IMG/VR virus record: IMGVR_UViG_3300036884_000118 | Coordinates: 1 to 26,254 of that record | Length of the DNA: 26,254 nucleotides | Source of the DNA: a virus | Strand: one strand, 5' to 3' | In this document: positions 5,603 to 20,484 of the stretch, piece by piece | Layout of the letters: every line of letters begins with the position of its first letter | Position numbering within the stretch: position 1 is the stretch's first letter | Notes under the pieces: generated by a model | What the model was told of the DNA's origin: nothing | What the model saw: only the letters and a program-made list of their open reading frames with translations | Databases searched by the model: none | Made by a program: the position numbers and the translations under genes

Positions 5603-6393
5603 TCGGCTCCTTTCCCGGTGTACCGGAGCACCCCGGACTTGTCGAATCGGGCCAGGTTCCCGAGGAAGTCCAGCAGCGTGGACTTCAGGTTGGCATCCCG
5701 GAGGTCGAGATCCTGCTTCAGATCGTCGTTGATCCCCCGGTCCTCTGGTTCTATCCTCTGGCCCGGCTCGATCACGCCCAGGCGAACAGCATCACTCCTG
5801 GATACGTCCCTGACGTCCATCCCGGAGTTGAACGCGAACGGCGGGAAGGGATTCCCCAGGCCGTCCTCGAAGAGATCCGGGCTGCCGAGCTCGTCCCAGA
5901 TGTCATCATCCTTGGCCGCGACCATCCGGCCGTCCACCAGCTCCCCGCCGGCTTCCTCCCAGCGGTCCGGCCAGTCCCTGGGTTTCCGGGGGACGTTCAC
6001 CCGGACCAGCTCCTGCGCCGGCCAGGTGTCGAGGATCCCCTGATCCTGCCCCTGGGTGAAGCTCCCGTAGCCTTCCGCGAGCTGGACGTTGGTGTCCAGG
6101 ATCAGATTGAGCCGGGCATCAGAGAGGTTTCCGAACCCGAGCTCGTCCGCCACGCGCTTGAGCATGGACCGCTCCGCATCCCGCGTCGAGTTCCCGGCCA
6201 GGATCTCGTCTATGGAGTTTCCCATCCGGTCGAGGGCCTTCGCACTCTCCACAGTGCTCGACCAAAACATCCGCTCCTTCAACTCCGCGGGGAGCACGGA
6301 GAGCAGCTTGGTGCGCAGCTCCGTCGGGATCAGCATCCGGGCCAGCCGGCTGTTGACCGCATCCTCGAATGGAACTGGAGCCGGGAAGATCAT
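5599..6393 (-). CDS. Mu gpF-like minor head protein (phage head morphogenesis)
   Basis: The frame stays open upstream to 6510, but the ATG at 6393 overlaps the stop of the glycosyltransferase gene by ATGA, as at every neighbouring junction, so I choose that start (264 residues). The core SPDLFEDGLGNPFPPFAF followed by NSGMDVRDVSRSDAV (residues 171-202) resembles the conserved region of SPP1 gp7/Mu gpF minor head proteins, which sit at the portal vertex. The usual place for this gene is next to the portal. Here it lies about 10 kb downstream, after the capsid genes and the sugar cassette, but still just before a gpG-like gene. The N-terminal 90 residues are charged and helical. Confidence 0.65.
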   Translation of the reverse strand: MIFPAPVPFEDAVNSRLARMLIPTELRTKLLSVLPAELKERMFWSSTVESAKALDRMGNSIDEILAGNSTRDAERSMLKRVADELGFGNLSDARLNLILDTNVQLAEGYGSFTQGQDQGILDTWPAQELVRVNVPRKPRDWPDRWEEAGGELVDGRMVAAKDDDIWDELGSPDLFEDGLGNPFPPFAFNSGMDVRDVSRSDAVRLGVIEPGQRIEPEDRGINDDLKQDLDLRDANLKSTLLDFLGNLARFDKSGVLRYTGKGAE

Positions 6394-7916
6394 GGCGCTG
6401 CGGGGATGAGCTGTCCACCTCGAACGGTAAAAGTCCGAATCGCCTTCGGCTCCGGCGCTGGTGCTACCGAAACGGCTGTGGCCGCTGAAGGCACGGGCAC
6501 CCCGCTCCACTTGGCGAGGTAACGCTGGGCATTGACGTCGAGAAGCTGCTGGTATTCTGGCTGCTTGGCGAAGCTGCAGTTGGCCGCATCATGGTCCACC
6601 ACGCACTCCCCGCAGATCCCCAGCCGCCCGCCGGCCCGCTTGATCCGGTAGCAGTAGTCATTATCCTCCCACATGCCGCCCTCATACAGCTCGTCAAACG
6701 GCCCGATGGTCTCCAGCGTTCTCCGGGGCAGGTACACGCAGATGAACGGGAATCGCTCCGGCTCCTCCACGCAACCCCGGCGATCGAGCTTCTGCAGGGG
6801 CAGGCTACTGCGGCCATGGACGACAGCACTCACGGCTGCCCAGTCCCGGCTGGCCTGCTGCAGCGCGCCGAAGCCACCCCGACTGGAGAGGAAGGCATCA
6901 TCATTGCAGAGCAGAACATCGTTGCGGCCGGCAGCGCTGAGTGCCAGGTTGGCATTAACCGCGAACGTGAACGGCTCCGGACCGGTGATCCAGCGCACTC
7001 CCTGGACTCTGGCGCGGTCCGCCTCGGAGATCCGGTCGGCCAGCACCACGATGTCCAGCGTGGGCCCTTGCTGCCGCCGCATCGCGGCCACGCAACGCAC
7101 CACGTTCTCGATCTGCCGGCTCAGGATCGCCACGGTGTAAGGCCGGAGCGGAACGGCCAAGGCCGGGATCACCTCGCTCTGCTTGAATTGGAGTCTGGCC
7201 CGAGTGGTCCTGGCTTGCACCAGGGGATCCTCATAACTGCCCCAGTGGCGGCGAAGATTCTCCGCGGAGAGCCGGCGGCGGCGCAGCCGGAGCCGATTGG
7301 TGAGCAGCTCCACTGGTCCCAGCCACTTGTAGTGGAGCAGCAGGGTGCGAGGAGTCTGGGAGACCATACGAGTCATGTCCAGATGGCTGCCGTTTTTCAG
7401 CAGCGCGTTGGCCCGGTGCGCCCCGCCGTCAAAGTTCATCTCCTCCACCAGGGAGGGCTGGAAAAGCACCGGCTTGGAGTAGATGGGATGGTTGGGCATG
7501 CCCCGGCGCACCTGCTCGTAAATCTGCCCGTCCGTGGTGGGGAACGTCTCGCTGAACATGTCCCAGCCCTCCGCCAGGATCACGGGCTGCCGCTGGGCCG
7601 CGTAGGCTGCCAGAGTGGCCTCCACTCCGCAGGGGAAATAGGCCAGCTCGTCCGCATCCATCGTGAGCACCCAGTCGGCGTCCGTTCCCTTCCAGCAGGA
7701 GCCTTTGAGCTTCCTGGCCAGATCATCATTGAGCTCGTTCCCCGTGTCCCAATCGAGAACGTGCGCCCCTCCCCTCCGGGCCACGTCCCGAGTTCCGTCC
7801 GTGCTCCGGCCGTCATGCACATAAATGTTTCCCGAGGCGAACGTGTTGTAGTGCCGCAGCGCGTAGGCCAGGATGGCCTCCTCGTTATATGCCAGGATGT
7901 GGACCTCAATCTTCAT
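6390..7916 (-). CDS. Two-domain family 2-type glycosyltransferase
   Basis: A 508-residue protein carrying two glycosyltransferase-A folds in tandem. Domain 1 (about 1-240) starts KIEVHILAYNEEAIL, has VHDGRSTDGTRDVA and an acidic MDADE motif at 86-90 for metal and nucleotide-sugar binding. Domain 2 (about 258-470) starts YTVAILSRQIENVVRCV, has FAVNANLAL followed by LLCNDDAFL (Asp339-Asp340), then FDELYEGGMWEDNDYCYRIK and a late VVDHDAANCSF. That order is typical of GT2 enzymes. It probably transfers two sugars or builds a disaccharide. The last 30 residues are Ala/Pro-rich. Its start overlaps the GT8-like gene and its stop overlaps the gpF-like gene, both by ATGA. The acceptor is unknown: a virion protein or the host envelope are both possible. 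Confidence 0.85.
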   Translation of the reverse strand: MKIEVHILAYNEEAILAYALRHYNTFASGNIYVHDGRSTDGTRDVARRGGAHVLDWDTGNELNDDLARKLKGSCWKGTDADWVLTMDADELAYFPCGVEATLAAYAAQRQPVILAEGWDMFSETFPTTDGQIYEQVRRGMPNHPIYSKPVLFQPSLVEEMNFDGGAHRANALLKNGSHLDMTRMVSQTPRTLLLHYKWLGPVELLTNRLRLRRRRLSAENLRRHWGSYEDPLVQARTTRARLQFKQSEVIPALAVPLRPYTVAILSRQIENVVRCVAAMRRQQGPTLDIVVLADRISEADRARVQGVRWITGPEPFTFAVNANLALSAAGRNDVLLCNDDAFLSSRGGFGALQQASRDWAAVSAVVHGRSSLPLQKLDRRGCVEEPERFPFICVYLPRRTLETIGPFDELYEGGMWEDNDYCYRIKRAGGRLGICGECVVDHDAANCSFAKQPEYQQLLDVNAQRYLAKWSGVPVPSAATAVSVAPAPEPKAIRTFTVRGGQLIPAAP

Positions 7917-8434
7917 GAGATGGCCTGTTCCCTCTCCGGCCGCAAGCCGTTGACTTTCATGCAGCCCGCAAAGTCCGCCCTGGCCACCCGGTAGGCCATG
8001 GGATTCATCACGGCCGTTGAGAAGTGGTTATGATCCTTCCCGCCCCCGAGCATGCAGAGGCGGTGCCACTCCATCAGGAAGAGCCGGGCCGCATCCGTGT
8101 CCGCCAAAAAGAAGGCCCCGGCAGTGAGCCGGTTGACGTGCGTTTTGACCGGGTTGTCCGCCACGGCCACGTCCCAGGGCTGCTCCGGGATCCGGGGAAC
8201 ACGCAAGAGCAACGTGTCAATGTCGAGGTAAAGCAGGATGCCCTGAACTTTTTGGCGAAGCTGAAGCAGTGCCCCTGGCTTGAGCCGCGTGTTGGCCGTC
8301 CAATCCCACCGGCTCTCCATCCTCTCCACGACCACGGAAAGATTGAGATTCTCAGCCACGGAGACGAACTGCACCACGCAGTCCTCATACTCCGGGGTGT
8401 AGAAGCCAACGACGGTGAAGCGTTCGGAGTTCAT
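7913..8434 (-). CDS. GT8-like nucleotide-diphospho-sugar transferase
   Basis: A 173-residue protein. The ATG at 8434 overlaps the methyltransferase stop by ATGA and is preferred over an in-frame ATG at 8491, which would add 19 residues of low-complexity shadow sequence. Residues 65-80 read GILLYLDIDTLLLRVP, the strand and DxD motif of GT-A enzymes. They are followed by WDVAVADNP and TAGAFFLADTDAARLFL, where GT8/DUF-type nucleotide-diphospho-sugar transferases have their conserved acceptor-side segment. An HNHFST segment follows near residue 135. The protein is shorter than most GT8 enzymes but ends naturally. It is the third enzyme of the four-gene cassette. Confidence 0.7.
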   Translation of the reverse strand: MNSERFTVVGFYTPEYEDCVVQFVSVAENLNLSVVVERMESRWDWTANTRLKPGALLQLRQKVQGILLYLDIDTLLLRVPRIPEQPWDVAVADNPVKTHVNRLTAGAFFLADTDAARLFLMEWHRLCMLGGGKDHNHFSTAVMNPMAYRVARADFAGCMKVNGLRPEREQAIS

Positions 8435-8985
8435 CGATGGATGAGGACCAGCAGGCCGTTGTTGTTTTGCGCGTGGCTGAAGACCTTCCATTGGTCCCCC
8501 TCGGAACTGCCGAGAAACTGAAGGATGCCGACCAGGAGGCCCGGCCCTCCGTCCTGACCCAGCACGCCGAAGGACATCGTGTCGTGAAAGACCAGGTAGC
8601 GTCGCACCAGCGGGGCGAAACGCAGCTCAGAGAGCACCTGCGTGGCCGTGTGCAGCGTGTCGATGAAAAGCATGTCCGTGTGACCGATCATGGGAATCAA
8701 GTTGGTGTCCGCGAGGACGAATCCCCAACTGACGTTCTCCGGAAGATAGGGAACGGGGTTGAGCTCCGAGGGTGCGAAGTCATAGGACACCAGTGTTCCT
8801 TTCCTCCCGTCGCTCACCGCCTTCTGACTCAGCCCCTCCAGCAGCGCCACCGTGGAGTTTCCTCCCCGCACACCGAACTCCGTCACGGTCTCGCAGGAGG
8901 CCGCCAGTTTGGCCAGCGTCACCAGGTGCTGGTTGATGTCGCTCGTCGCGGCTCTCCGTTGCTCAAATGCGTCGTGGAGGGTCAT
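8431..8985 (-). CDS. Class I SAM-dependent methyltransferase (Methyltransf_24 / cephalosporin hydroxylase-like)
   Basis: A 184-residue protein starting at the ATG (8985) that overlaps the GT-B stop by ATGA. An upstream in-frame ATG at 9078 would add unconvincing sequence. Motif I, TEFGVRGGNSTVALLEGL (residues 35-52), is the SAM-binding glycine loop. LVSYDF (65-70) supplies the acidic residue after strand 2. DMLFIDTLHTATQVLSEL (104-121) and LVFHDT (131-136) match the strand 4/5 motifs of the small-molecule and sugar O-methyltransferases related to cephalosporin hydroxylases. Given its glycosyltransferase neighbours, methylation of a sugar, or of the glycan acceptor, is the most economical role. 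This is inferred from context. Confidence 0.75.
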   Translation of the reverse strand: MTLHDAFEQRRAATSDINQHLVTLAKLAASCETVTEFGVRGGNSTVALLEGLSQKAVSDGRKGTLVSYDFAPSELNPVPYLPENVSWGFVLADTNLIPMIGHTDMLFIDTLHTATQVLSELRFAPLVRRYLVFHDTMSFGVLGQDGGPGLLVGILQFLGSSEGDQWKVFSHAQNNNGLLVLIHR

Positions 8986-9977
8986 GGGTTGAGGTGGGGC
9001 TGGAGCTTGCTCATGGGCGGACTGTTCGCGGCCATCCAGCGCAGCGGGATCCCGGCCTCGATCTCCGGGAGCGTCCACTGCGCGTAGGCCACCCGGTTGA
9101 GGTGGGCTTGGACCATCGCCCGTGCCCTGGGGTCACTGGAGTTCCCACAACTCCCGATCTGGAAGTAGTGCGCCGCCGGGGCAGAGTCCACCGGGAGGCC
9201 GGCCAGGATCGCCTGGAGGCCGGCTGTGGAATTGTACGTCACCACCACCCCGGCCCCAGCAAGGGCTTGCTCCAGGGATTCCCGCTGCGGACTCCGGATC
9301 TCCAGGCCCTGGACGCAGGGTGCACTCTGACCGGGGAGTTGCGGGTGCGCCCGAAATCTCAGGGAATAGCCTTCCGCCTGCCAGAATCCGGCCCGATCCG
9401 TGAGCCAGTTCCGCAGCTGCTGCTCCGTGAGCTCATGCTGGCCGTCGTTGGGCACCTGGCCGAGGAGCAGGGCGACCCTGGGCCGCTCCACCCCCATTGG
9501 CCCCAACTTCACTCCCAGGGCCTGGAAACGGTCATCCGGGAGAGGCCCTTCAGGGATCTGGCAAGGCCCGCCCACCCCGATCTGCGTGTATCCCTCCCGA
9601 TCCATGCCGTCCCGTGCCCGATTGATGTACCCGAGGTCCATGCTCAGGAGCTGGATGCCGCGAGATCGGAGGATGCCCCGTGCCCAGGCTTCCGGGGAAT
9701 GATTCCCGGCTGTGAACGCGAAAAGGATGCCTGGCCGCTGGGTGAGGGAGAGCAGCGTGGGGCGGGTGCTATCCATCGCTGCCACCACCCCTCCACCCAG
9801 AGCCTTGATCCCGGTGACCATGGCCTGGATCCTGACCTTGCTCCCATAGTTCCCCAGCTGGATCGCGGTCCACGGGGCATCCGGGGATTTATCAGCCTGG
9901 ATGACCTCCATAGCCGACTGCTTGATCTCCGGGTCTCCGGGACCAAAGATCCTCTTGACTGAGAAAGACGAGCTCAT
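8982..9977 (-). CDS. GT-B-type glycosyltransferase, capsule-polysaccharide-transferase-like
   Basis: A 331-residue protein. The ATG at 9977 overlaps the DUF1320-like gene's stop by ATGA; the frame extends to 10094 but without support. The N-terminal half has Rossmann-like stretches (WTAIQLGNYGSKVRIQAMVTG, GGGVVAAMDS, GILFAFTAGN). The C-terminal half has VALLLGQVPNDGQ (168-180), LRFRAHPQ (206-213) and VVVTYNSTAGLQAILAGLPV (244-263). The last is the sugar-nucleotide loop typical of capsule/Kdo-type GT-B transferases. RVAYAQWTLPEIEAG (295-309) is also typical of phage members of this group. It is first in the cassette, so it may start or extend the glycan. The donor sugar cannot be told from the sequence. 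Confidence 0.7.
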   Translation of the reverse strand: MSSSFSVKRIFGPGDPEIKQSAMEVIQADKSPDAPWTAIQLGNYGSKVRIQAMVTGIKALGGGVVAAMDSTRPTLLSLTQRPGILFAFTAGNHSPEAWARGILRSRGIQLLSMDLGYINRARDGMDREGYTQIGVGGPCQIPEGPLPDDRFQALGVKLGPMGVERPRVALLLGQVPNDGQHELTEQQLRNWLTDRAGFWQAEGYSLRFRAHPQLPGQSAPCVQGLEIRSPQRESLEQALAGAGVVVTYNSTAGLQAILAGLPVDSAPAAHYFQIGSCGNSSDPRARAMVQAHLNRVAYAQWTLPEIEAGIPLRWMAANSPPMSKLQPHLNP

Positions 9978-10429
9978 AGGCCCCTCATTTGCTCCCGGCC
10001 CGCCCGGGCTTCGGATGACGTGACCAAGCTCGTGTAAGGGCCGCTGATCACCTGCTGGGTTACGGCCAGGGGCTGCTCGATCCTCATCTCGCATGAAGCG
10101 ATCTGGTCGAGGGTCCTCATCGCCCCGTCATACTCCTTCTTGCGGTCTGCATTCATCACCCCGGCCGGCACCCGGTCGCACCCATAGTAGGCTCCCAGGA
10201 TGAGCGTGACCCGGCGCAGCTCCTGCGGGATTTTGTAGCCGAGGGTCTGGTCCCCGAGGACGTTCTGGAGGCACCCGGCCACCTTGCCCCGCACGAACTG
10301 GATGGCATCATTCATCGCATTGGGCAACGGATCCGTCTGCCCGGCTTGCGTCGCGGCCGTCTGGATGGCCGTGATCTCCGGCCCCGTCAGGACTTCCCGG
10401 AAATCCGTTTCTGTTACGGTGATCCACAT
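9974..10429 (-). CDS. DUF1320 / Mu gp36-like head-tail connector protein
   Basis: A 151-residue protein starting MWITVTETDFREVLTGPE. The layout matches the gp36 family: an N-terminal helix, an acidic helical segment (LPNAMNDAIQFVRGKVAG), a Pro-led helix (IPQELRRVTLILGAYYGCDRVP) and a final helix RKKEYDGAMRTLDQIASCEM. These proteins act at the head-tail joint. The gene follows the major capsid gene after a hairpin-rich gap, as in Mu-like phages. Its stop begins the run of ATGA overlaps that ties the glycosyltransferases to the morphogenesis genes. Confidence 0.6.
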   Translation of the reverse strand: MWITVTETDFREVLTGPEITAIQTAATQAGQTDPLPNAMNDAIQFVRGKVAGCLQNVLGDQTLGYKIPQELRRVTLILGAYYGCDRVPAGVMNADRKKEYDGAMRTLDQIASCEMRIEQPLAVTQQVISGPYTSLVTSSEARAGREQMRGL

Positions 10430-10562: not shown

Positions 10563-11642
10563 TCAGCTCGTCGCGTCCGTCACCCGGTAATTCACGATGC
10601 CGAGGGATGACGTGAGGACGATGTTGGAATAATGCTCCACGGAGATTTCCACAACCTTAGCGGAGATCTGCCGCATGTACACGTTGAGGTCCAGTGCTCC
10701 GGACGGCCGGGAGGTCGTCGCGCCGTCAGTGCCCGTGAAGACTTGCGGAGGCGGGCTCACGAACCGCTTGATGTTCGACGGGTCCTCCACGTCCTGGCCC
10801 TGCATGGCCGTGAACATGAGGATGCCCTTGCCCAGCATCTGGCTCTTGGTGTTCTTCGTCACCTGGAATCGCTCCTTGCTGACGTACACCTCGTCCACTC
10901 CGAGCAGCGGGGCGAGTTGCAGCGGGGTCAGGTTGGAGGTGAGGAATCGGGAGGCGTTGGCCCCGGTGCGCATTGCCAGGAAGCGTTGCGCCCAGGCCGA
11001 GTGCCCGAAGGCCACGCGGTTGAACTGGAAGCCTTGGCTGTCCGCCGAGATGATCCCGGCGGAAACGATGTCGCCGTCCGGATCCGAGTTGCTGTCCCAC
11101 ACCTTGTCCACGACCGTCGCGGCCCCGGTGAGGAGCGTGATGGCACGGAAGAGTTCATTGCGGAGCAGGCGGCGGATGAGCTTCGCCACGAAGCGGTTCT
11201 CCCAGCCCGGCATCTGCACCGGTACCTGGTCCAGGTCGATCAGCATCATCAAGCCCTTGTTCAGGGTCTTGCCGGTCTGGTCGATCCCGGTGTACTCCAC
11301 GCGCTTGAAGTTCGCCCCGATGGCGCGAACGTCATCCGACTCCTGATAGAACTCTTCCGCGTTGCTCCACTTCTTCCATTCGAAGAGCCGGCCGGGGACG
11401 ATCACCTTGGGCGCGTAGAACTCCAGCGCCGCCTCGATGTTGTTCGGGTCCTGATAGCCCACGGCGTAGGTCGTCAGCGGCTCGCTAAAGAACGTCTCAC
11501 CGAAGCGAGAGTCATTCGCCAAGCCGTAGATTTCGCCCGGATGGATGTCCTGCTCACTGGCCGGGAGCGGCCGGGGAGCCTGAAATCCGAGTTGGTTGGC
11601 CAGGGACATAAGCTCCGAGGCCGAGATGTGATTTTGTTTCAT
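10563..11642 (-). CDS. Major capsid protein
   Basis: A 359-residue protein. I choose the ATG at 11642 (MKQNHISASELMSLANQLGF); the frame is open to 11735, but the added part is the decoration gene read in another frame. The length, the lack of signal or membrane segments, and the position directly after protease/scaffold and decoration-like genes all suit a HK97-fold shell protein. Visible features include a long middle helix region (ENRFVAKLIRRLLRNELFRAI), AFGHSAWAQRFLAM, and VDEVYVSKERFQVTKNTKSQ followed by GKGILMFTAMQ, as in Mu-like capsid proteins where a late strand carries the spine. The leader has no Shine-Dalgarno sequence but contains AACGAC, a motif also seen in the right arm. A hairpin follows the stop. 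Confidence 0.75.
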   Translation of the reverse strand: MKQNHISASELMSLANQLGFQAPRPLPASEQDIHPGEIYGLANDSRFGETFFSEPLTTYAVGYQDPNNIEAALEFYAPKVIVPGRLFEWKKWSNAEEFYQESDDVRAIGANFKRVEYTGIDQTGKTLNKGLMMLIDLDQVPVQMPGWENRFVAKLIRRLLRNELFRAITLLTGAATVVDKVWDSNSDPDGDIVSAGIISADSQGFQFNRVAFGHSAWAQRFLAMRTGANASRFLTSNLTPLQLAPLLGVDEVYVSKERFQVTKNTKSQMLGKGILMFTAMQGQDVEDPSNIKRFVSPPPQVFTGTDGATTSRPSGALDLNVYMRQISAKVVEISVEHYSNIVLTSSLGIVNYRVTDATS

Positions 11643-11701
11643 CTTAAAAGTCGTTAAGATTTTGGTTTGTGTTTCTGTAGTCTGGTGAGGGTGCTGGGCG
11701 A

Positions 11702-12244
11702 TCAAGAGGTGACCGTGACCTCGTAAGGCGCGCACGGGGCGAACTCAAAGTCGTCATACTGCGCCGTGTTGACCTGGTTGAGGGAGCGGCCGACCACCCA
11801 ATGAGAACCGGCAGTGGCCGGAATGGCGACGACGAAGCCGGCATTGACGGGAGACGGGACGAGGAGGCTGAGCGGAGGGATGACCCCGTCCGCCAGCGCG
11901 ATCGCAGTCCCGGCCCCGAGGCCGAGGATCCGAGCCGCAATGTAATCACCGGCAGCCATGGACTGATCCGTGAGGATGTACAGGGGCACGAGGCCCGCCG
12001 TGCATTGGCGAATGTAGCCAGGGCCACCCACGCCTTGCGCGGCGAGCATGAACCGGCCGTTGTAATTAGGATCCGTCGTGGGCTGCCCCACCGGAATCAC
12101 CCAGGGGAGATCAGCGCGGAGGGACAGGACGCCGTCGATGTGCGTGCCCGGCCCGTAATTCGCCAGGAGCACGGCGCTCGGCGAGAAGAGCTGTTCAAGG
12201 AAGTTGAACAGGCTGCTGAGATAGAACTTGAGAAGAGCTTTCAT
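11702..12244 (-). CDS. Possible capsid decoration or head accessory protein
   Basis: A 180-residue protein starting MKALLKFYLSSLFNF, between the protease/scaffold and the major capsid gene. That is the usual slot for a decoration or head-stabilising protein. The central sequence (PLYILTDQSMAAGDYIAARI, then TAIALADGVIPPLSLLV, ending HWVVGRSLN) follows the small beta-barrel pattern of decoration proteins such as DUF2190 members. No motif is decisive. The hydrophobic N-terminal 20 residues could be a helix packing on the capsid or, less likely, a membrane segment. The assignment rests on order and fold-like pattern only. Confidence 0.5.
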   Translation of the reverse strand: MKALLKFYLSSLFNFLEQLFSPSAVLLANYGPGTHIDGVLSLRADLPWVIPVGQPTTDPNYNGRFMLAAQGVGGPGYIRQCTAGLVPLYILTDQSMAAGDYIAARILGLGAGTAIALADGVIPPLSLLVPSPVNAGFVVAIPATAGSHWVVGRSLNQVNTAQYDDFEFAPCAPYEVTVTS

Positions 12245-12313: not shown

Positions 12314-13057
12314 CTAGCGGCGGCGGTCCGAGGTGTGGGTCTTGATCTCCGGGTGCTTCATGCCCTTGAACAGCTCCACGTTCTCCGGGTCGGCCTGGAA
12401 GTTGGCGAAGGCCACGTCGTAGGTCTCCTTCTTGGCTTCCATGCGGGCCTTGACGCCGTCCGAGATCTTGGTGAACTTGGTGGCCCCGACCTGGGACGCG
12501 GTGCGCTCCATGTTCGGCAGCCCCATCGTGGTGGAGGAGGTCTTCATCACGGGTTTCTTCTCCGTGATCTTCTTGGCTTCCGCCTCGAAGGCCGCGAGAT
12601 CCCCGTTGCAGAGGCTGACCACGAGGGCATCCTTCTCTCCGGGGAGGATCCGGCCGGTCACTACGGCCGCGTTGGCGAGCCGCGTGGCGGAGGCTTTGCG
12701 CTCCGCTGCCGCCTCTTCCTTGGCCGCCTTGACCTCGGCCTGCGCCTTGGTTTTTTCCGCGTCGGCCTGAATCTTTTCGTTCTTGGCGTCCAGGATCTTC
12801 TGGTCCGCTTCCTGCTTGGTGTTGGCCAGAGCCGCGCTATTGGCGATCACGGTCGTGACGGCCTCCGGCGTCGTGAGCTTGGCGTTCGTGAGCACGGTGA
12901 GGAGCGCGGCGTTGGCCGCTTCGCTCGTGCCCTTGGTCTTGATGCCGGCGATAGCCGTTTGCACGGAGTTCGCCAACTCGGCGTCCCCGACGTTCTGGGC
13001 CACGTTCTGACCGAGAGCCGCGAGGATCTGAATGAGCAGATCACGTTCTTTGTTCAT
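12314..13057 (-). other. Possible internally started scaffold (Mu Z-like)
   Basis: An in-frame ATG at 13057 (residue 874, MNKERDLLIQILAALG) would give a separate 247-residue product made only of the coiled-coil scaffold region. The bases before it, CAATCCAAACCCAAATCAG, are A/C-rich like the leaders of real starts in this phage, and they encode an Asn/Pro linker. In Mu the scaffold Z is made from an internal start of the protease gene I; the same arrangement is inferred here, not shown. Confidence 0.4.
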
Positions 13058-15676
13058 CTGATTTGGGTTTGGATTGTTGACTGGTTGTCCGTCGCCCGCC
13101 CAGTTCATGAGAGAGGGGCCGGGAATATTGGCCCGATTCACAAGACCGACGGACAACAGCTTGTACGGAGAAACGATTGGCCGGCCATCCTCGGCGGATT
13201 CCCCGGTGGGCCGGCAGTTCCAGTAGGGGCTGAGGCGGTCGTTGCCGGCCTCCACCACGGTCGCGCCGTTGGCGGTGAGGACGGGCCGGCCGTACAGGCC
13301 GTCATCCCGCGCCTGGAGGTCCGCGTAGGTGCCCTTGGATTCCTTGTCCTTGAAGATGTGCCGCAGGCTGGGCACGTCCGGGTGCCCGTTGTAGATGGGC
13401 AGGCCAGTGACGGCGCGCTTGATCCGGCCCCAGGTGGACTTGAAGTTGGCGACGATGGTGTCGGCTGCCTTGCGGTCGAACCGCTGGACCGTCGGCACCG
13501 GGTTGTCCGGCATCCCGGGGTGCGGATGGTCACCGTACTTGGAGATGATCGCCCAGCCGTCGAACGTGCCGGACTCCATGACGTTGGCGAGGGACTGGTC
13601 GTCGCTCATCGTCGTCCCGAGGACCAGCGCGATGTCCTCCGTCAGCGCCACGTTGGCCAGGCCGAGGATCAAAGCTTCATCGAGCGAGCAGTTGGGCCTG
13701 CCCGGTGCGCCGGTAGCGATTGCCTTATCCAGAAACCGTTTGGACATTGTGTCATGCCACTTCGCTTGGGCACTACGGGATTGATCACTCATATTGTGGA
13801 TCCCCCCGCCGTTCATAGGAGTTTTAAGAGCTGCATTGTGCGCATCCCGGGCATCTTCATGAGCCTTTGATGCTGCGATGTAAGCACCATAACTCTTATC
13901 TTTGTAGGTGGCTGCCCCGGCTTTGGAGGCCCGGGCTGTTGCTTCATCTGCATTGACGGCTGCCTTTATGCTCTCATCTTTCTCTGCTGCTGAGAACTGG
14001 TTTCCGTGAAAATCATGCCCGGCCACGTCCCCGTTCGCCACGATCAGTGCCTCGTCCATAGAACAGTTGGCAGCCTCCATAGCTGCAAGGGCCTTCCGGT
14101 CGATCTTCAGTCGTGCAATCCGACTCTTCACCAGCGCGATATTGCTGGGCTTATCTAATGACTTCAGGCCTTCTCGGTGGTCGGAAATAGCCCGATCTAC
14201 TTCCGCAACGCTTCCCGGAGACCTTGCACCGATGCTGGAATAGTATTTGTCCATCTCTTCCATGGCCGCCTTCCACTGATTCCCTCGGAACGGGTGGCCG
14301 ACCACGTCCCCGTTGCTCAGCTCGGCCGGCAGGACGCAGTTGGCCTCCCCGTTGACCGCGCCGCCCATGTTCTCGTAGATCGTCGTGACCACGGGCCAGT
14401 AGGCGTCGTCGTCTATGGAGTAGGACTTGTTCGCGGCCGTCTTGGCCCGGTCCCAGATATCCTCGTCGGCCACCCAGCTCGCGGGATTCTTCCCGTCCTT
14501 GAATTGCTTGTGCGCCAGCGCGCCGAGGTGGATGGCCCGGCCGGTGAGATGCTCTCCGTGCTTGCCCGGATCTGCGAGGACTGGTTTTTGAAACTGGCTC
14601 TCCGCCAGGCGGCTGGATTGGGTCTGGAGCGCGTCGCCCGCGCCAGGCGTGTTCGGGCTGGCTCCGAGATCCCCATTGGCCTTGTCGTCCTCGTCGTCCG
14701 GGGCCTCGGCTCCGCCCTCGCAGGGGCAGATCGTCCGGGCCTTCTTGACGTGCTCCTGCATCTTGGCGATCTCCGCGTCGTGCTCACCCGGCGTGGGAGC
14801 GTGGAGCGCGGCGTGCAGGTGGGCCTTGGCGGCCTTCGCGTTCAGCTTGAAGGCGTTCTCCCGGGCAGATGGGTGGACCTCCGGTAGCATCGCGTGGGAA
14901 GCCACGTTGGAGGCCGTGTCCGCCCGGCTCTTGGCCTTGGCGAAGCGGGATTCGGACGGGGTGGCCATCGGGGAGTTGGAAAGCAGCGCCTCATCCAGGG
15001 AGACGTTGGCCCAACCGTGCTTTACAAAATCTTTGTACCCACGGGCCTGGTCTCCACGAGCAACAGCAGCGCGGATGTCTCCATCCTTGTCTCCTACAGC
15101 ATCTGCTAGATGCCTTCCACGAGTGGAGTCCAAATATTCGCGGGCCTGAGCATGCGTTCCACCATGTTGTCCGACCAATTCATTCCGCGCAGTGTCATAC
15201 TCCTTGTCTAGCGTCGGATGACGCTCATTGGCATCAGTCGTAAGACGAGGATGCGCATTCGCCCGTGTACCGTAGAATCCCCATTGTGTGTTCTGCGTTG
15301 GGTGCTCTGCTCCAGCCCCGGCAGCCTTCAGGTTGCTTTGCTGGAGTGCCAATGCCCGGTATTGATGATCTTGCGCCATTGACTCATGTGCTGCCTGCTG
15401 CTGCAGGTGCATGCGCTCTCCATCTGTGTTCCCGGTCGCCTTGGCCAACTTCGCCACCTTACCATGCTCATCGGCAGCATCCTCATGAGCCTTGGCAGCA
15501 GCGAAGTGCGTACCAGCCGTATTCTCCTTTACTGCCTGGAATGTAGCCTCGTGCGCCTGGCTGCTCACCCTAAAGGCATGCCCGGCTCCGGAGCTGTACT
15601 GGTTTCCGTGGAACTCGTGGCCGGCGACATCGCCGTTGGCCGCGAGGAGTGATTCATCAAATGATTGTGGTTTCAT
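12314..15676 (-). CDS. Giant Mu gpI-like prohead protease/scaffold fused to GHxFxGNQ modules
   Basis: A 1120-residue protein from the ATG at 15676 (an in-frame ATG at 15745 would add 23 residues). Residues 1-700 are a chain of modules. GHEFHGNQY (19-27), GHPFRGNQW (460-468) and GHDFHGNQF (553-561) each follow an NGDV sequence. SLDEAL-like segments recur near 5-12, 225-232, 538-545 and 663-670. Ala/His/Lys helical stretches lie between. Residues about 399-440 hold PASWVADEDIWDRAK and VVTTIYENMGG, a segment known from phage head proteins. Residues about 703-855 look like the Mu gpI protease (WAIISKYGDHPHPG, LPIYNGHPDVPS, LSPYWNCRPT, LLSVGLVNRANIPG). Residues 874-1120 form a Lys/Ala/Glu coiled coil, as expected for scaffold. 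Capsid maturation is the likely role. Confidence 0.75.
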   Translation of the reverse strand: MKPQSFDESLLAANGDVAGHEFHGNQYSSGAGHAFRVSSQAHEATFQAVKENTAGTHFAAAKAHEDAADEHGKVAKLAKATGNTDGERMHLQQQAAHESMAQDHQYRALALQQSNLKAAGAGAEHPTQNTQWGFYGTRANAHPRLTTDANERHPTLDKEYDTARNELVGQHGGTHAQAREYLDSTRGRHLADAVGDKDGDIRAAVARGDQARGYKDFVKHGWANVSLDEALLSNSPMATPSESRFAKAKSRADTASNVASHAMLPEVHPSARENAFKLNAKAAKAHLHAALHAPTPGEHDAEIAKMQEHVKKARTICPCEGGAEAPDDEDDKANGDLGASPNTPGAGDALQTQSSRLAESQFQKPVLADPGKHGEHLTGRAIHLGALAHKQFKDGKNPASWVADEDIWDRAKTAANKSYSIDDDAYWPVVTTIYENMGGAVNGEANCVLPAELSNGDVVGHPFRGNQWKAAMEEMDKYYSSIGARSPGSVAEVDRAISDHREGLKSLDKPSNIALVKSRIARLKIDRKALAAMEAANCSMDEALIVANGDVAGHDFHGNQFSAAEKDESIKAAVNADEATARASKAGAATYKDKSYGAYIAASKAHEDARDAHNAALKTPMNGGGIHNMSDQSRSAQAKWHDTMSKRFLDKAIATGAPGRPNCSLDEALILGLANVALTEDIALVLGTTMSDDQSLANVMESGTFDGWAIISKYGDHPHPGMPDNPVPTVQRFDRKAADTIVANFKSTWGRIKRAVTGLPIYNGHPDVPSLRHIFKDKESKGTYADLQARDDGLYGRPVLTANGATVVEAGNDRLSPYWNCRPTGESAEDGRPIVSPYKLLSVGLVNRANIPGPSLMNWAGDGQPVNNPNPNQMNKERDLLIQILAALGQNVAQNVGDAELANSVQTAIAGIKTKGTSEAANAALLTVLTNAKLTTPEAVTTVIANSAALANTKQEADQKILDAKNEKIQADAEKTKAQAEVKAAKEEAAAERKASATRLANAAVVTGRILPGEKDALVVSLCNGDLAAFEAEAKKITEKKPVMKTSSTTMGLPNMERTASQVGATKFTKISDGVKARMEAKKETYDVAFANFQADPENVELFKGMKHPEIKTHTSDRRR
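13994..14020 (-). repeat. GHxFxGNQ motif, copy 3
   Basis: Encodes GHDFHGNQF (residues 553-561 of the protease/scaffold protein), preceded by VANGDVA. Confidence 0.85.
14273..14299 (-). repeat. GHxFxGNQ motif, copy 2
   Basis: Encodes GHPFRGNQW (residues 460-468), preceded by SNGDVV. Confidence 0.85.
15596..15622 (-). repeat. GHxFxGNQ motif, copy 1
   Basis: Encodes GHEFHGNQY (residues 19-27), preceded by AANGDVA. Confidence 0.85.
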
Positions 15677-16360: not shown

Positions 16361-18169
16361 TCAGCTTTCTTTTGACTTTGGTGGAACTGCGCGCGCGGCC
16401 GCAGCCTCTGCGATGGCAGAGACGAGGGCCGTGGAATAGATTTCGTTGAGCGCGTTCGCCAGGGCCGGGTTGGCCGCGATGCGCTTGAAGAGGGCCGGCA
16501 TGTCGTGCCGGAGCTTGGCCAGTGCGGTGTGCCGCTGCACGTCATCGTTCATCGTCGCGGCATTCTGCAGCAGCGTGATCACCGGGGCCATCATGGTCCG
16601 TTGCGCATTGCTGAGCTTGGCCATGGCCGTGGCGCGGAAGACCGCCAGCTTGCCCGCCGCCTTCTGGTCCAGGTTGGCCAGAGCCGGCGTGAAGATCGCG
16701 TTGCCGTAGGAATCGTCACCCTTCGCGGCCGCCTTGTCTGAAGCGCCCACCGGGTCCTTGAGTTCCTTCCCGGCCGGACCGAGCAGATCATCCTCCTCCG
16801 AGGGTGCCCCGCCAGCAGTAGGTGCCGGAGGGGTGAGGCACTCCTCATCCTCTTCTGGCTCTGGGATGGCGAGCTCGTTGCGGGCCCAGGCCACGCTGAT
16901 CTTGACGCCCCAGGATAAGGCTCCCCCGATCCGGGCGATCGTGTCGGCGACGGTCTTGGTGTCCGGCACAGAAATCTTGGCATAGGCGAGCGGATCCTCG
17001 CCGGGGAACACGCGGGCGATGACCATCTCGTCGATCTGGTGCAGGGTCTCCGTGATCAACTCCGCGTCGTCCTGCTCCATCAGGTTTCCCTCCCCACCCT
17101 GCAGGGAGGATCCGTGCCCCTGGGACTGGTGGCCGGAGGAGATCGTGGAGAGGTCCGCGCCCCGGCAGATGGTGGCAATGGCCTTGTCCATGAGCTCCAC
17201 CAGCGGCGCGAACACGGTGTTGTTCCCGGTCGATCCCTGGGGGATGATCAACTCGATGCCGTTGTCCACGGCCGTGACGGCGGTCCAGTCCTGCGCGAAC
17301 TTCCGCAGCGCATCCTCCATCTCCTTCCACTGTTGACTGTTGAACGCAGCCTTGGTCTTGCCGAGGATTCCAGGCGTTCCAAACCGCTCTGAGAATGAAA
17401 CCCAGTCCTTGAGAGGCATGGTCTTGAACATGTAGCAGACCGCGATGGCCTCCGCGATCCCGTCCGCCACGGTGACCAGCCACTCTCCCTGCTCCATCTC
17501 ATCACCCATGATCGTGCCGAAGTATCGCTTGAGGAAGCGCAGGTGCGCCGTCTGGGTCTCGAAGAAATACAGTGGCACATAGTTGAAGTCCGCCGTCAGC
17601 CGCGCCGCGCCCGTGACGGGATCCACGCTGGGACGCCACACGATCTCGTGCACGGCATAGCGGTAGTACACGGCCTCCATCATCTGCTGGATGAGGAGCC
17701 GTTTCCCGCCCGCCTGATCCTGCTCCATCACATTCCGGGCGTGCAGGTTGTCATAAAAATACGTGAGCGCGCTGGCGTGCAGCTTGGCCTGGTCCTTGAG
17801 CTCCTTCTCGATGTGGTCGTTCGTGATGACGTCGATCCCGTGGCGACTGATCGCCTTCTCCCGCTTACGCGTGCTGGTCTGGACCATGTAATCCCGCCGC
17901 TTGATCGCCTCTGCCATGAGCGCGAAGTCCCGCAGATAGCCCATCTGGAAGTTGTCAATCTGCCGCGAGAGGAGGTCCGGGGTGAGCATCCGGATCGGAT
18001 TGAACCGGGACCGCTTGGCCCACGCGGCCACCCAGGCACTCATGTTGGGTGAGATCACGCCGCCGCTCGCCATGTTCGCGAGCATCTGGCGCTTGGTCAG
18101 CTTCGGCTCCGTTTCGATCTCCGGGAGGAGGCTGCGCGATCCGCTTGTGGCAGGGGTGGTCTTTTTCAT
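16361..18169 (-). CDS. Portal protein, DUF935 / Mu gp29 family
   Basis: A 602-residue protein, somewhat longer than typical DUF935 portals. The N-terminus has DLLSRQIDNFQMGYLRDFALMAEAIKRRDYMV, the usual entry helices. The middle has YRYAVHEIVWRP, DWVSFSERFGTPG and TAVDNGIELIIPQG. Then comes the stem region, from SSGHQSQGHGSSL to NLMEQDDAELITETLHQIDE, ending VIARVFPGEDPLAYAKIS, all as expected for this family. The portal forms the DNA channel at one capsid vertex and binds terminase. Residues after about 430 form a C-terminal extension with an acidic linker and a helical part (NAQRTMMAPVITLLQN). The start overlaps the 75-aa gene by ATGA. Confidence 0.85.
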   Translation of the reverse strand: MKKTTPATSGSRSLLPEIETEPKLTKRQMLANMASGGVISPNMSAWVAAWAKRSRFNPIRMLTPDLLSRQIDNFQMGYLRDFALMAEAIKRRDYMVQTSTRKREKAISRHGIDVITNDHIEKELKDQAKLHASALTYFYDNLHARNVMEQDQAGGKRLLIQQMMEAVYYRYAVHEIVWRPSVDPVTGAARLTADFNYVPLYFFETQTAHLRFLKRYFGTIMGDEMEQGEWLVTVADGIAEAIAVCYMFKTMPLKDWVSFSERFGTPGILGKTKAAFNSQQWKEMEDALRKFAQDWTAVTAVDNGIELIIPQGSTGNNTVFAPLVELMDKAIATICRGADLSTISSGHQSQGHGSSLQGGEGNLMEQDDAELITETLHQIDEMVIARVFPGEDPLAYAKISVPDTKTVADTIARIGGALSWGVKISVAWARNELAIPEPEEDEECLTPPAPTAGGAPSEEDDLLGPAGKELKDPVGASDKAAAKGDDSYGNAIFTPALANLDQKAAGKLAVFRATAMAKLSNAQRTMMAPVITLLQNAATMNDDVQRHTALAKLRHDMPALFKRIAANPALANALNEIYSTALVSAIAEAAAARAVPPKSKES

Positions 18170-18393
18170 GATGTTATTCTGTCCAGGTCCCAGCGGACCC
18201 AGGACGTGATGACCTTGAGATCGTGAAGCATGATCTGAGCGTGGACGTTATTGACGAACATCACGCGCATGGGCGGACCGAGCCGGGCCACGGAGTCATA
18301 GCGCCAGCGGTGCGGGTGGACGGAATCCATCCGGCGGATGCCGTCCCGGCACTCCCGGACGATGTCCCCGCTGCGTGGCAGTGCGGTGCTCAT
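18166..18393 (-). CDS. 75-aa protein coupled between large terminase and portal
   Basis: A 75-residue protein, MSTALPRSGDIVRECRDGIR onward. Its start overlaps the large terminase stop by ATGA (18390-18393) and its stop overlaps the portal start by ATGA (18166-18169), so it is almost certainly translated. It is basic with many Arg, and the part DIVRECRDGIRRMDSVHPHRW followed by RVMFVNNVHAQIMLHDLKVI suggests a small mixed alpha/beta fold. The spacing and coupling suggest a packaging or portal assembly role. No known family was recognised. Confidence 0.75.
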   Translation of the reverse strand: MSTALPRSGDIVRECRDGIRRMDSVHPHRWRYDSVARLGPPMRVMFVNNVHAQIMLHDLKVITSWVRWDLDRITS

Positions 18394-19763
18394 ATGAGTC
18401 CCATCCCTCTGCCTCGGAGGAAACGGCCGTGGCCCATCTCCCCGCGGTCTGCGGAGAGGAGTTCGTCCCGGTTCATCGCGGTGACTCCCAGTGCCACGTT
18501 GTTGCGCTGCCGCGCGCGGGCTAGGGCGAGGGAGCACACGCAGTCGTCGTTGAAACCCTCCGGCGCAGAATAGAGCACTTTCCTGCCCTTGAAGCTGTAG
18601 CTGTACTCGAATGATTCGAGCTCCAGGACGATGGCGCCGTCCGGGTACGAGCAGCGGCGGGCTTGGAGGTCTGCGGCCAGGCCCTCCATGAGCTGCTGCT
18701 TGGATGCGTTCGTGAAGACCCAGCCCTCGAAGTTGGCCCCGCCGGCCGGGTTCTGCTGGAGGTGCTCCAGGATCGGGTCGCCGGCCCCGGTGGAGTCCAC
18801 GAAGGCTTGGGCCCCGTTGGTCTGCCTGATGATCTTGGCCTCCGTCTCCGGCCACGGGCAATGCTGCCAGCGGTCCCAGGCGGCCACTGCCCCGGCCTCG
18901 TCCAGGCCGGTCCCCACCGTGAAGTCCACGGACTTGGCCAAGTCCCAACCAAAGGCGACTGCCGCCCGCGTGCTGAGGCCGTTCTTGTTGACGCAGGCCG
19001 CGATCGCCGCGAGCCCGAACGGATTCCCCTCGTCGTCACCGTCCACGCAGTCGTAGAGCTGCGCAAAGATCGCGGGAGGGAGCACGCGCTTCGCGTCGTC
19101 ATACTCCTCCTGAGGGAAGATCCCGGCCGCTATCGCCATCTGCGCCGTGAGCCGGTGGTATTTCATCTGCTTGTCCCCGCCGGCCTCCGCCTTCCGGGCG
19201 AGTTGGTAGGCCCAGTTGCGACGCCCGCGCTTGTTCCCGATGATCCGGATCGGCCCGAGCGTGGCCGTGAGCGTTGACCGGACTGCATGCCACGCCTCTG
19301 GCTTAGTCCGGCTCGCCTCGTCGATCACCGCGGCCCGCACATCCTCCCCATAAAGCGTGTCCGGCCGGTCCGCGCCCTTGAACACAATGGTCGAGCTTAT
19401 GTCTGCCAGCGTGATCGAGCACTCCGACTCGTTCGCCTTGAAGCTGTCCTGCGGGAGCGCGCGCTTCATCCGGCGGTAGGCGATCTTGGACACGCCGAGA
19501 GTCGGCGCGACCCACCAGAACTGGTGCCCGGGCTTCCCGAGATATGCCTTTTCCAGGAGCCAGCAGATGCAGCCGCTGGTCTTCCCAGTCTTCGTGCTCG
19601 CCTCGATGATCGAGATGCGCGCCGGGTCGTAGATCGCAGCTTCTTGCTCCCGGTAGAGTTTCGGGCGGTAGAACTTGACCTCACGCGGAGCCTGCGCCAG
19701 CTCGTTGGAGTCTTGCTCGGACTGCGGACCAGGAGCCTCAACGGTTGCGGGATCAGTTGCCAT
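18390..19763 (-). CDS. terL: Terminase large subunit
   Basis: A 457-residue protein from the ATG at 19763, which overlaps the end of the small terminase by 11 nt; an ATG at 19844 would only add a translated repeat. The ATPase part has a Walker A-type ASTKTGKT (55-62), Walker B AAVIDEA (144-150) and a coupling segment GPIRIIGNKRGRRNWAY. The nuclease part has acidic positions in FGWDLAKSVD (Asp274), FVDSTGAGD (Asp323) and GFNDDCVCSLALA (Asp406/407). Together they translocate DNA into the prohead and cut concatemers. The length is on the short side for the family but both domains are present. Confidence 0.9.
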   Translation of the reverse strand: MATDPATVEAPGPQSEQDSNELAQAPREVKFYRPKLYREQEAAIYDPARISIIEASTKTGKTSGCICWLLEKAYLGKPGHQFWWVAPTLGVSKIAYRRMKRALPQDSFKANESECSITLADISSTIVFKGADRPDTLYGEDVRAAVIDEASRTKPEAWHAVRSTLTATLGPIRIIGNKRGRRNWAYQLARKAEAGGDKQMKYHRLTAQMAIAAGIFPQEEYDDAKRVLPPAIFAQLYDCVDGDDEGNPFGLAAIAACVNKNGLSTRAAVAFGWDLAKSVDFTVGTGLDEAGAVAAWDRWQHCPWPETEAKIIRQTNGAQAFVDSTGAGDPILEHLQQNPAGGANFEGWVFTNASKQQLMEGLAADLQARRCSYPDGAIVLELESFEYSYSFKGRKVLYSAPEGFNDDCVCSLALARARQRNNVALGVTAMNRDELLSADRGEMGHGRFLRGRGMGLI

Positions 19764-20484
19764 TCGTGTCCGAGTTCCCGTTGCCGTTCCCGTTGCCGTT
19801 ATGAAAATGCCCGTTCCCGTTGCCGTTGCCATTCCCGTCCCCATTCGCTGGAGACAGATCCACGCCCACCCGCTCCGCCAACGTCAACGGAGTCTCCGCC
19901 AAAGCCTGCGTCACTTCCTTCGGCTCGAAGATGTTCACCGTCACGACTCGCGGCCCCGTGGACACCTTCCCGGAGTGGTCCACCGCGAACACGTCACGCT
20001 GCCCCAAGAGCTGCTTGCCGAGCCAGATGCACATCGTCGCGTTCCCCTTGATCGCGAGCAGGAGTTGCTGCCGCCGAAGAGAGCGCCGCGTTGCCTCAAG
20101 GCCCTTTTTATACGCTCGGCCTATCGGCGTGAGCGTCCCATCCTCGCCCACCTTGAGCGCGCGCTGAATCGCATTTAGGCTTACTCCCAAGGTGTTAGCC
20201 ATTTCCTGCTCGGTGCAGCCCAGGAGGCCAAGACGCCTGACCAGATTGAGATCGACCTGAACGAGCTGCGGGATGGGATGGGGCCCAAAGAATTTCTGAG
20301 GATCCTCGCCGGCTGCAACGGCGGCCTCGTACCTGGTTCTGTGGCGGATTGCATCCTCGTCGAAGTAGGCCACGATCGGGCCGGGGAGCGCGTTGAGCGG
20401 TCCGGGGTGTTTCTTGGCGGCGGCGGCGCAGGCTGCGGCGAGACCCTTCGGGGAGAACTTGGAATCTGTGGGTTTACCAGGCAT
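19753..20484 (-). CDS. terS: Terminase small subunit
   Basis: A 243-residue protein. A helix-turn-helix lies at about 78-112 (RRLGLLGCTEQEMANTLGVS then LNAIQRALK), the DNA-binding unit that recognises the packaging site. NATMCIWLGKQLLGQRD (148-164) is a segment typical of this group. The final 30 residues are a low-complexity Gly/Asn tail (GNGNGNGNGHFHNGNGNGNGN), encoded by a hexanucleotide-like repeat. The gene starts the left arm. The bases before its ATG, CTCCAACCACGAT, resemble the leader motif of the right arm. It overlaps terL by 11 nt. Confidence 0.8.
   Translation of the reverse strand: MPGKPTDSKFSPKGLAAACAAAAKKHPGPLNALPGPIVAYFDEDAIRHRTRYEAAVAAGEDPQKFFGPHPIPQLVQVDLNLVRRLGLLGCTEQEMANTLGVSLNAIQRALKVGEDGTLTPIGRAYKKGLEATRRSLRRQQLLLAIKGNATMCIWLGKQLLGQRDVFAVDHSGKVSTGPRVVTVNIFEPKEVTQALAETPLTLAERVGVDLSPANGDGNGNGNGNGHFHNGNGNGNGNSDTNGN
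19771..19848. repeat. Degenerate hexanucleotide repeat encoding Gly-Asn tail
   Basis: Plus-strand units CCGTTG and CCGTTC recur through this stretch, broken by ATGAAAATG. They encode the alternating Gly/Asn tail of the small terminase. Such arrays are prone to slippage. The other frames through the array give spurious upstream extensions of terL. Confidence 0.8.

Follow-up and report, generated by a model that had tools for sequence, protein, structure and literature searches.

A GHxFxGNQ peptide that may follow head-protease cut sites and mark capsid-cargo modules in a Mu-type phage head precursor

How proteins are chosen for packaging into phage heads, and how effectors fused to head proteins are released, has to our knowledge been worked out for few phages. 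A locus that raises this question lies in a viral stretch of 26,254 bases (the window; the whole of IMG/VR record IMGVR_UViG_3300036884_000118), in which Mu-type head genes are on the minus strand. Between the portal gene and that of the major capsid protein is an open reading frame (ORF) of 1120 amino acids, P0001, built of about 690 residues of modules with three GHxFxGNQ motifs, then a protease and then a scaffold. What are these modules, and what does the motif do? A preliminary description of this DNA had read P0001 as a protease/scaffold protein extended by about 700 residues with three such motifs, which we confirmed (Table 1). It was also right that Mu-type proteases are far shorter; related proteases have 456 (L002) and 431 (L011) amino acids, and the last 431 residues of P0001 align with normal-sized proteases. 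The best explanation of P0001 is that it is a head polyprotein of four small cargo modules, a prohead protease of the assemblin/T4 gp21-like kind, and a scaffold. From the sequence patterns around the motif, we think that a prohead-protease cut site probably stands immediately before it, so that the motif marks the start of each capsid-cargo module.

We collected the motif from 43 loci related to P0001 and from a scan for back-translated GHEFHGNQ (at least 120 stretches), which gave at least 213 deduplicated viral ORFs with at least 325 copies. The consensus was [VLI]-x-K-G-D-[VL]-[PA]-G-H-[EP]-F-[HR]-G-N-Q-[YW]-[TS] followed by a Gly-rich part, with little conservation beyond about –7 to +15. 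A looser pattern occurred 400 times in 51 records (50 picked for having matches, plus the window), compared with 0 times for the reversed pattern. There were 1–24 copies per record, and all copies were on one strand in 33 of the 41 records holding two or more. The three copies in the window have different codons, and codons were identical in 553 of 1188 comparisons between motif copies, indicating that the peptide and not the DNA is conserved. A DNA-level mobile element was rejected for the same reason. No Pfam model was seen at the motif among the best 20–25 families listed per scan, nor in the scans of P0001 and its relatives. In the literature searched, with subscription papers and preprints largely outside its reach, we found no description of GHxFxGNQ, and motif strings occurred only in three papers, which are unrelated by title and abstract. 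The motif is a genuine, non-random feature, and it belongs to a large pattern that, within the reach of our searches, has not been reported. Among 84,980 prokaryotic genomes (GTDB) the strict pattern had one match; this sole GHEFHGNQ match, L162, is a contig of an Armatimonadota metagenome-assembled genome. Possibly this contig comes from a phage and was binned together with that of the host, which would make it a clue to the host.

Directly before GD (position –5), most copies have K, others have L, A or E, and those of the window lineage have N; S at this position belongs largely to a GGxGSG variant of the motif that lacks GD. Positions –7 to –5 agreed in 0.41–0.45 of within-genome non-homologous pairs as compared to 0.24 of pairs between genomes. 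Control flanks agreed in 0.06–0.075 within genomes and 0.057–0.061 between them. Over eight variable positions the observed agreement was 0.391 with a permutation mean of 0.313, and 0 of 1000 label permutations reached the observed value. Residue –5 was N in 7 of 7 contexts from the window, L002, L003 and L004 (a near-copy of L003), and in 1 of 325 elsewhere. That single outside context was L107 from record G042, and a stretch of G042 was then fetched because of this N. Identity to the window is 43% for its portal and 42% for its major capsid protein, and it belongs to the same lineage. The motif of G042 reads SLAN↓GDVTGHEF (the arrow marks the putative cut), and its protease/scaffold ORF has nine [LTIV]AN sites with 0.92 expected. 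There are two such sites each in its portal and capsid ORFs, with about 0.7 expected (by itself no significant excess), and none in its small head ORF.

Sites of the L/T-A-N kind are found in the portal, protease, scaffold, small head ORF and capsid protein of the window lineage. In six relatives we counted 71 [LTIV]AN sites in 24 head ORFs, with 15.6 expected, and 9 in 43 other ORFs, with 12.7 expected. This count took 6 of 13 loci; the rest duplicated loci in use, being their contigs or apparent near-copies, except for L011, which was counted separately. In L011 and L175, TAN replaces LAN across the head genes, with 29 TAN to 4 LAN as compared to 4 to 83 in nine genomes. Ten aligned proteases have xAN just before the domain in seven cases and Asn just after it in all ten. 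The preliminary description had suggested that the motifs could mark protease cleavage sites. This gains indirect support in that the residue before the motif matches a pattern enriched in the head proteins of the lineage, but the bond that would be cut is just upstream (N↓GD) and not in the motif.

In L003, L166 and L011, LAN/TAN is followed, immediately or one residue later, by a second junction peptide, (F/Y)DP..R...G.(W/F). This placement, at or within one residue of LAN/TAN, would be left unexplained if the motif were a loading tag that acts without cleavage, as would N before GD in a LAN/TAN-rich lineage and almost nowhere else. Under that alternative, GD..GHxFxGNQ would dock to scaffold, portal or shell and draw the attached domain into the head, and the upstream residue would co-vary as part of the docking surface. 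The sharing of the core by phages with different protease families fits this, as do the location near the N-terminus of small stand-alone ORFs, where a targeting signal would be, and the genome-specific flanks, which suit a docking partner too. We judge docking without cleavage to be rather unlikely.

Several observations weigh against a cut directly before the motif. Cleavage, the cut position, packaging and injection are what we infer from sequence, and no cleavage product has been observed anywhere. The protease parts and the L166 portal had been seen before the [LTIV]AN pattern was chosen, and the remaining rows of the count sum to 31 with 9.5 expected. The switch from LAN to TAN in L011 and L175 is one event, since their proteases are 78% identical. 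L011 has a GHxFxGNQ copy without N before the motif, and that of L166 has its N displaced upstream by one residue (LAN↓AGD). The motif is absent from the plus-strand ORFs of the fetched flanks of L165, L167, L174 and L175, and L168 has a degenerate copy only. LAN/TAN is nevertheless enriched in these relatives, so LAN is independent of the motif and head processing does not need it. Two xAN sites, at residues 744 and 803, fall inside the protease domain of P0001. In K-type genomes, a corresponding pattern gave 41 sites in head ORFs (17.3 expected) and 4 in other ORFs (6.1 expected) where it had been noticed. By contrast, held-out loci gave a weak 29 (17.3 expected) in head ORFs and 33 (33.0 expected) in other ORFs. 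The K pattern is also unspecific, with 24 sites and 16.4 expected in N-type head ORFs, and the generalization to K-type phages is suggestive only. In L- and A-type (DUF2213) genomes, no clear matching site was found at ORF ends inspected by eye. Finally, phages with other protease families (DUF2213, phrog_9427, phrog_80) have the same GHxFxGNQ core, which is odd if the core is merely the recognition sequence of one protease. That the core is invariant despite different proteases would be easier to understand if it had a further function, for example docking. The reading we favor is thus a cut site with a retained tag, which may have a role of its own.

We propose that the motif unit consists of a leader or spacer of 10–30 residues, a genome-specific residue, and GD-xx-GHxFxGNQ-[YW], and that the precursor would first enter the prohead and there be cut by the head protease immediately before GD. 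In the window lineage the cut would be after Asn in L/T-A-N-like contexts. Each module would be freed with a GD..GHxFxGNQ tag at its new N-terminus, the SLDEAL spacers would be dropped, the protease would be freed at SLAN698 and SLMN858, and the scaffold would be chopped. In other phages, effector domains are joined through the same junction to the portal, MuF, the protease or short leaders of their own, and effectors behind the junction would be retained in the head and injected together with the DNA. If this is true, the genome sequence of an uncultured phage would give both a list of its likely injected proteins and their cut site, so that a shared peptide at the border of head protein and effector would make phage cargo choice a sequence question. 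The tag would also be a concrete candidate loading signal for foreign cargo in phage heads. Only tentatively do we extend this to a general portable capsid-cargo code, in which any domain behind GD..GHxFxGNQ would be packaged, cut loose by the phage's own head protease and injected, with the residue before GD tuned to that protease. Such a code would allow the residue before GD to predict the head-protease specificity of each phage.

The location of the motif within proteins was measured in 163 of 189 ORFs, namely those with a strict motif and uncut by the end of the locus. In 102 of these the first motif was 60 residues or fewer from the first ATG (median 30), and successive copies within one ORF were 73–808 residues apart (median 214). 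None of 76 copies in 24 ORFs was inside a Pfam domain, with 12.9 expected by circular shift and a minimum of 3 in 20,000 shifts. For this we used a hand-entered list of the best Pfam stretches, some below the Pfam cut-off, with overlapping families merged or trimmed; 11 of 35 scanned proteins were dropped for having no usable domain. The idea in the preliminary description that similar peptides occur near domain junctions of other phage head proteins is borne out by this result and by portal, MuF and protease proteins that carry the motif. A position between domains, mosaic architectures, the Gly-rich tail behind the motif and the steps in G+C (GC) content between the window modules would also suit a flexible linker and recombination junction, a partnerless hinge that survives by allowing domain swaps between phage genes. 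This is improbable in our view, since a linker gives no reason for stand-alone proteins to have the motif about 30 residues behind their start or for H, F, N and Q to be conserved, and the differing codons are not those of a DNA-level recombination site.

Domains above the Pfam cut-off in at least one motif protein were ADP-ribosyltransferases, PI3K-like kinases, GNAT, 2H phosphoesterase and MuF. Matches to RelA/SpoT, ParB, HipA and Acb1-like domains were below the cut-off wherever it was shown. Among the best 25 of 100 PHROG families, portal, head morphogenesis, head maturation protease and minor head protein each matched 4–6 of 99 motif ORFs, and MuF proteins carry the motif in several records. 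As to whether the motif is equally common away from head genes, it mostly is not: 66% of copies were 10 kb or less from MuF as compared to 32% expected (15 records, P 0.00035). This proximity is partly built in because in several records the motif lies in the MuF ORF itself. The test took 15 of 23 records; seven were left out (motif positions not all listed, or a weak match) and one near-duplicate was dropped. Proximity to the large terminase (TerL) gave a weaker result (P 0.019; 18 of 24 records entered), and the median distance to TerL was 22–71 kb in 5 of the 18. Since effectors carry the motif, it might instead be a post-injection signal, with a host or injected protease or chaperone recognizing it in the infected cell and releasing or refolding the effectors. 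A host partner could account for a constant core despite different head proteases. We find this the least credible of the alternatives because portal, MuF and protease proteins bear the motif as well, and the residue before it varies with the head proteins of the phage itself.

Two side observations concern these proteins. L005, L029, L044, L053, L109, L097 and L030 have runs of small ORFs that consist of a short leader (e.g. FSTEALLKSxSNYPVxKGD), the motif and differing sequence, and by sequence these look like a rack of packaged proteins. Intein-splicing matches are beside MuF domains in the motif polyproteins L031:6746-10510 (below the Pfam cut-off) and L113:679-9840. Intein-like self-splicing was rejected as an explanation of the motif, as these matches in two motif ORFs are away from it.

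The head proteases of T4 and SPN3US cut at L/I-X-E and A-X-E, respectively. These sites and the T4 capsid targeting sequence resemble the arrangement in the window in having a short N-terminal leader or propeptide and repeated sites across head proteins, and the T4-type protease may have the same fold as that of the window, to judge by a weak structural match. By contrast, T4 and SPN3US sites are a few residues before the cut, whereas here a long conserved peptide would stand after the putative cut and is common to phages with different protease families. As a comparison, the accessible text of PMC10052503 gives 14 sites in nine proteins for the SPN3US prohead protease and cites a paper on the T4 capsid targeting sequence. 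Mu-type protease/scaffold proteins (gpI, PF10123) are like P0001 in gene place between a Mu-type portal and the shell protein, in catalytic residues and in the C-terminal scaffold fusion. P0001 differs from Mu gpI in its roughly 690 extra N-terminal residues of cargo modules and has no PF10123 match.

Polyvalent proteins are multi-domain, head-associated proteins with ART (ADP-ribosyltransferase), PBECR, ParB and RelA/SpoT domains, and in the accessible text PBECR fusions to portal and MuF are reported and processing is put down to MPTase domains (Iyer et al., 2017; PMC5512222). A shared junction peptide or release by a prohead protease is not part of that text, from which the words "linker" and "short motif" are absent. 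Polyvalent proteins hold several effector domains; the window modules match no effector family, and other motif proteins do. Our proposal would add a release route for polyvalent effectors to the peptidase domains suggested in the accessible part of PMC5512222. MuF polymorphic toxins (PMC5576092) are like the motif proteins in that a head protein bears a variable effector. The accessible text of that paper has no words starting with "motif", "linker" or "cleav", and unlike MuF toxins as described there, the motif is a junction peptide common to MuF, portal, protease and stand-alone ORFs. P0001 is not one of these toxins, as there is no MuF (PF04233) match in the window.

We also examined the identity of the protease. 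His765 and Ser842, which we take to be the catalytic pair of the family, are invariant across ten aligned homologues, the window included. A model of the protease domain had a predicted local distance difference test (pLDDT) score of 73 and a predicted template modeling (pTM) score of 0.71. In Foldseek its best matches were weak ones to T4 gp21 and the human cytomegalovirus protease (E 0.012–0.016, probability 0.89–0.97, TM about 0.4), with no match at E 0.001 or below. This model weakly supports a fold of the T4 gp21/assemblin type. P0001 itself had no match in Pfam, including Mu-like_Pro (PF10123). Relatives were above (L166, 27.7), at (L168, 25.2) or below (L003, 23.1) the Mu-like_Pro cut-off of 25.2 bits, and PHROG head maturation protease families matched the proteases of L002 (E 0.0011), L003 (1.3e-5) and L177 (8.7e-11). 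Phmmer of P0001 against the PDB gave no match. With tblastn in 50,697 cultured-phage records, where the motif itself was not searched, P0001 gave no match and one small motif ORF matched three records, all at E of 1 or more; this route led to no virion proteome.

SLDEAL-like segments in P0001 begin at residues 5, 226, 449, 539 and 664. Each of the four internal ones is flanked by a pair of Asn residues 9–13 apart, an arrangement that suggests removable spacers. The proposal that the precursor releases internal capsid peptides thereby changes somewhat, as the data fit better with release of whole domains and of spacers of 9–13 residues. In the scaffold-like part, Asn sites of the LAN, AAN, LTN or IAN kind are at 903, 922, 931, 946, 952 and 1002. 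The modules had no match to any effector family among Pfam and PHROG profiles. A weak match to phrog_8253 (88 positions, unknown function; E 0.0051) at residues 537–564 covers most of motif 3; this family, a possible ready-made model of the motif, was absent from the matches of nine other motif ORFs. The full-length AlphaFold2 model of P0001 (mean pLDDT 49, pTM 0.26) was used solely to read the alternation of helix and coil, with the motifs mostly in low-confidence coil. GC content in the window is about 0.54–0.57 at 13650–14250 and 15000–15450 (modules 3–4 and part of module 1) and 0.65–0.69 at 14250–15000 and 13200–13650. These steps between module stretches are consistent with modules of separate origin.

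Table 1. Head genes of the window and putative parts of P0001, in window positions.
Feature	Position	Strand	Remarks
Large terminase	18390..19844	-	phrog_2 E 1.1e-30; no LAN-type site
Mu-type portal	16361..18169	-	PF06074 E 1.8e-44; LAN at residues 30, 497, 570
P0001, module-protease-scaffold precursor, 1120 aa	12314..15676	-	open frame, ATG at 15676, stop 12314-12316
N-terminal leader MKPQSFDESLLAAN, residues 1-14	15635..15676	-	ends at putative cut site N14
Motif 1 GHEFHGNQ, residues 19-26	15599..15622	-	preceded by N↓GDVA
Module 1, residues 15-224	15005..15634	-	His/Ala-rich helical part and phrog_8020-like stretch 126-197 (PHROG E 1.6e-8); putative borders
Spacer VSLDEALLSN, residues 225-234	14975..15004	-	between N224 and N234; putative role
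Module 2, residues 235-446	14339..14974	-	conserved domain about 375-440 common to L002 (alignment); putative borders
Spacer CVLPAELSN, residues 447-455	14312..14338	-	between N446 and N455; putative role
Motif 2 GHPFRGNQ, residues 460-467	14276..14299	-	preceded by LSN↓GDVV
Module 3, residues 456-537, helical	14066..14311	-	residues 491-530 pLDDT 76-81 in poor overall model; putative borders
Spacer CSMDEALIVAN, residues 538-548	14033..14065	-	between N537 and N548; putative role
Motif 3 GHDFHGNQ, residues 553-560	13997..14020	-	preceded by VAN↓GDVA
Module 4, residues 549-662, His/Ala-rich, helical	13691..14032	-	by eye resembles part after motif 1; putative borders
Spacer CSLDEALILGLAN, residues 663-675	13652..13690	-	between N662 and N675; putative role
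Protease domain, residues 699-858	13103..13582	-	between SLAN698 and SLMN858; His765, Ser842
Scaffold-like helical part, residues 859-1120	12317..13102	-	probable scaffold by position and homologues
Small head ORF after protease	11702..12244	-	decoration-like by position (putative function); LAN at residue 27
Major capsid protein	10563..11735	-	phrog_1005 E 3.3e-8; LAN at residues 45, 72 of listed ORF

The nearest relative found, L002, has a 570-amino-acid ORF directly before its protease/scaffold ORF; it holds two motifs and shares some modules with P0001. Because modules and an ordinary protease are encoded by two neighboring ORFs there, the window protein looks like a fusion. In L003 a motif module is behind the protease domain, after the first scaffold residues, and a separate scaffold-like ORF is next, and the portals of L166, L011 and L177 are extended at the C-terminus by a part that holds the motif. 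The varied placement in these five relatives shows that the module unit moves among positions around portal and protease. The L166 protein has the portal at 80–427, the motif near 724 and a PBECR3 nuclease at 759–865 (E 3e-18). The motif is also on a DUF2213 ORF (L027) and on two ORFs with head-maturation-protease matches (L008, L020), so that the arrangement seen in the window recurs with different protease families.

Some minor observations were made in these relatives. At L003:5797-6990 and 7028-7606, the protease ORF ends in a scaffold-like start and a motif module while the full scaffold-like ORF is separate, i.e. a split protease-scaffold gene. In L008:7458-10193 and L020:4846-7281, phrog_21715 (unknown function) covers both the protease part and the motif modules, and this PHROG family may thus already hold the module-protease architecture, unnamed. 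The second junction peptide is roughly (F/Y)(D/N)P(D/N/G)..R...G.(W/F) and precedes modules or an apparent effector domain. Its sites are L003:5797-6990, L166:5596-7149, L011:3681-5921, L002:5015-6727, the end of L149:10339-11376, and L020:1215-3896, and in several cases it is preceded by LAN, TAN or LTK↓G. Its strings were found in no paper of our literature search, and it may be functionally interchangeable with GHxFxGNQ.

The minus-strand gene set of the window consists of the terminase, Mu-type portal, P0001, small head ORF, major capsid protein and a gp36-like gene. Four further ORFs separate the gp36-like gene from the late genes that come next. Three of these, two of them without a PHROG match, are at 7913–10094, beside a glycosyltransferase-like ORF at 6390–7916 on the minus strand that matches PHROG beta-1,4-glycosyltransferase (E 3.7e-8).

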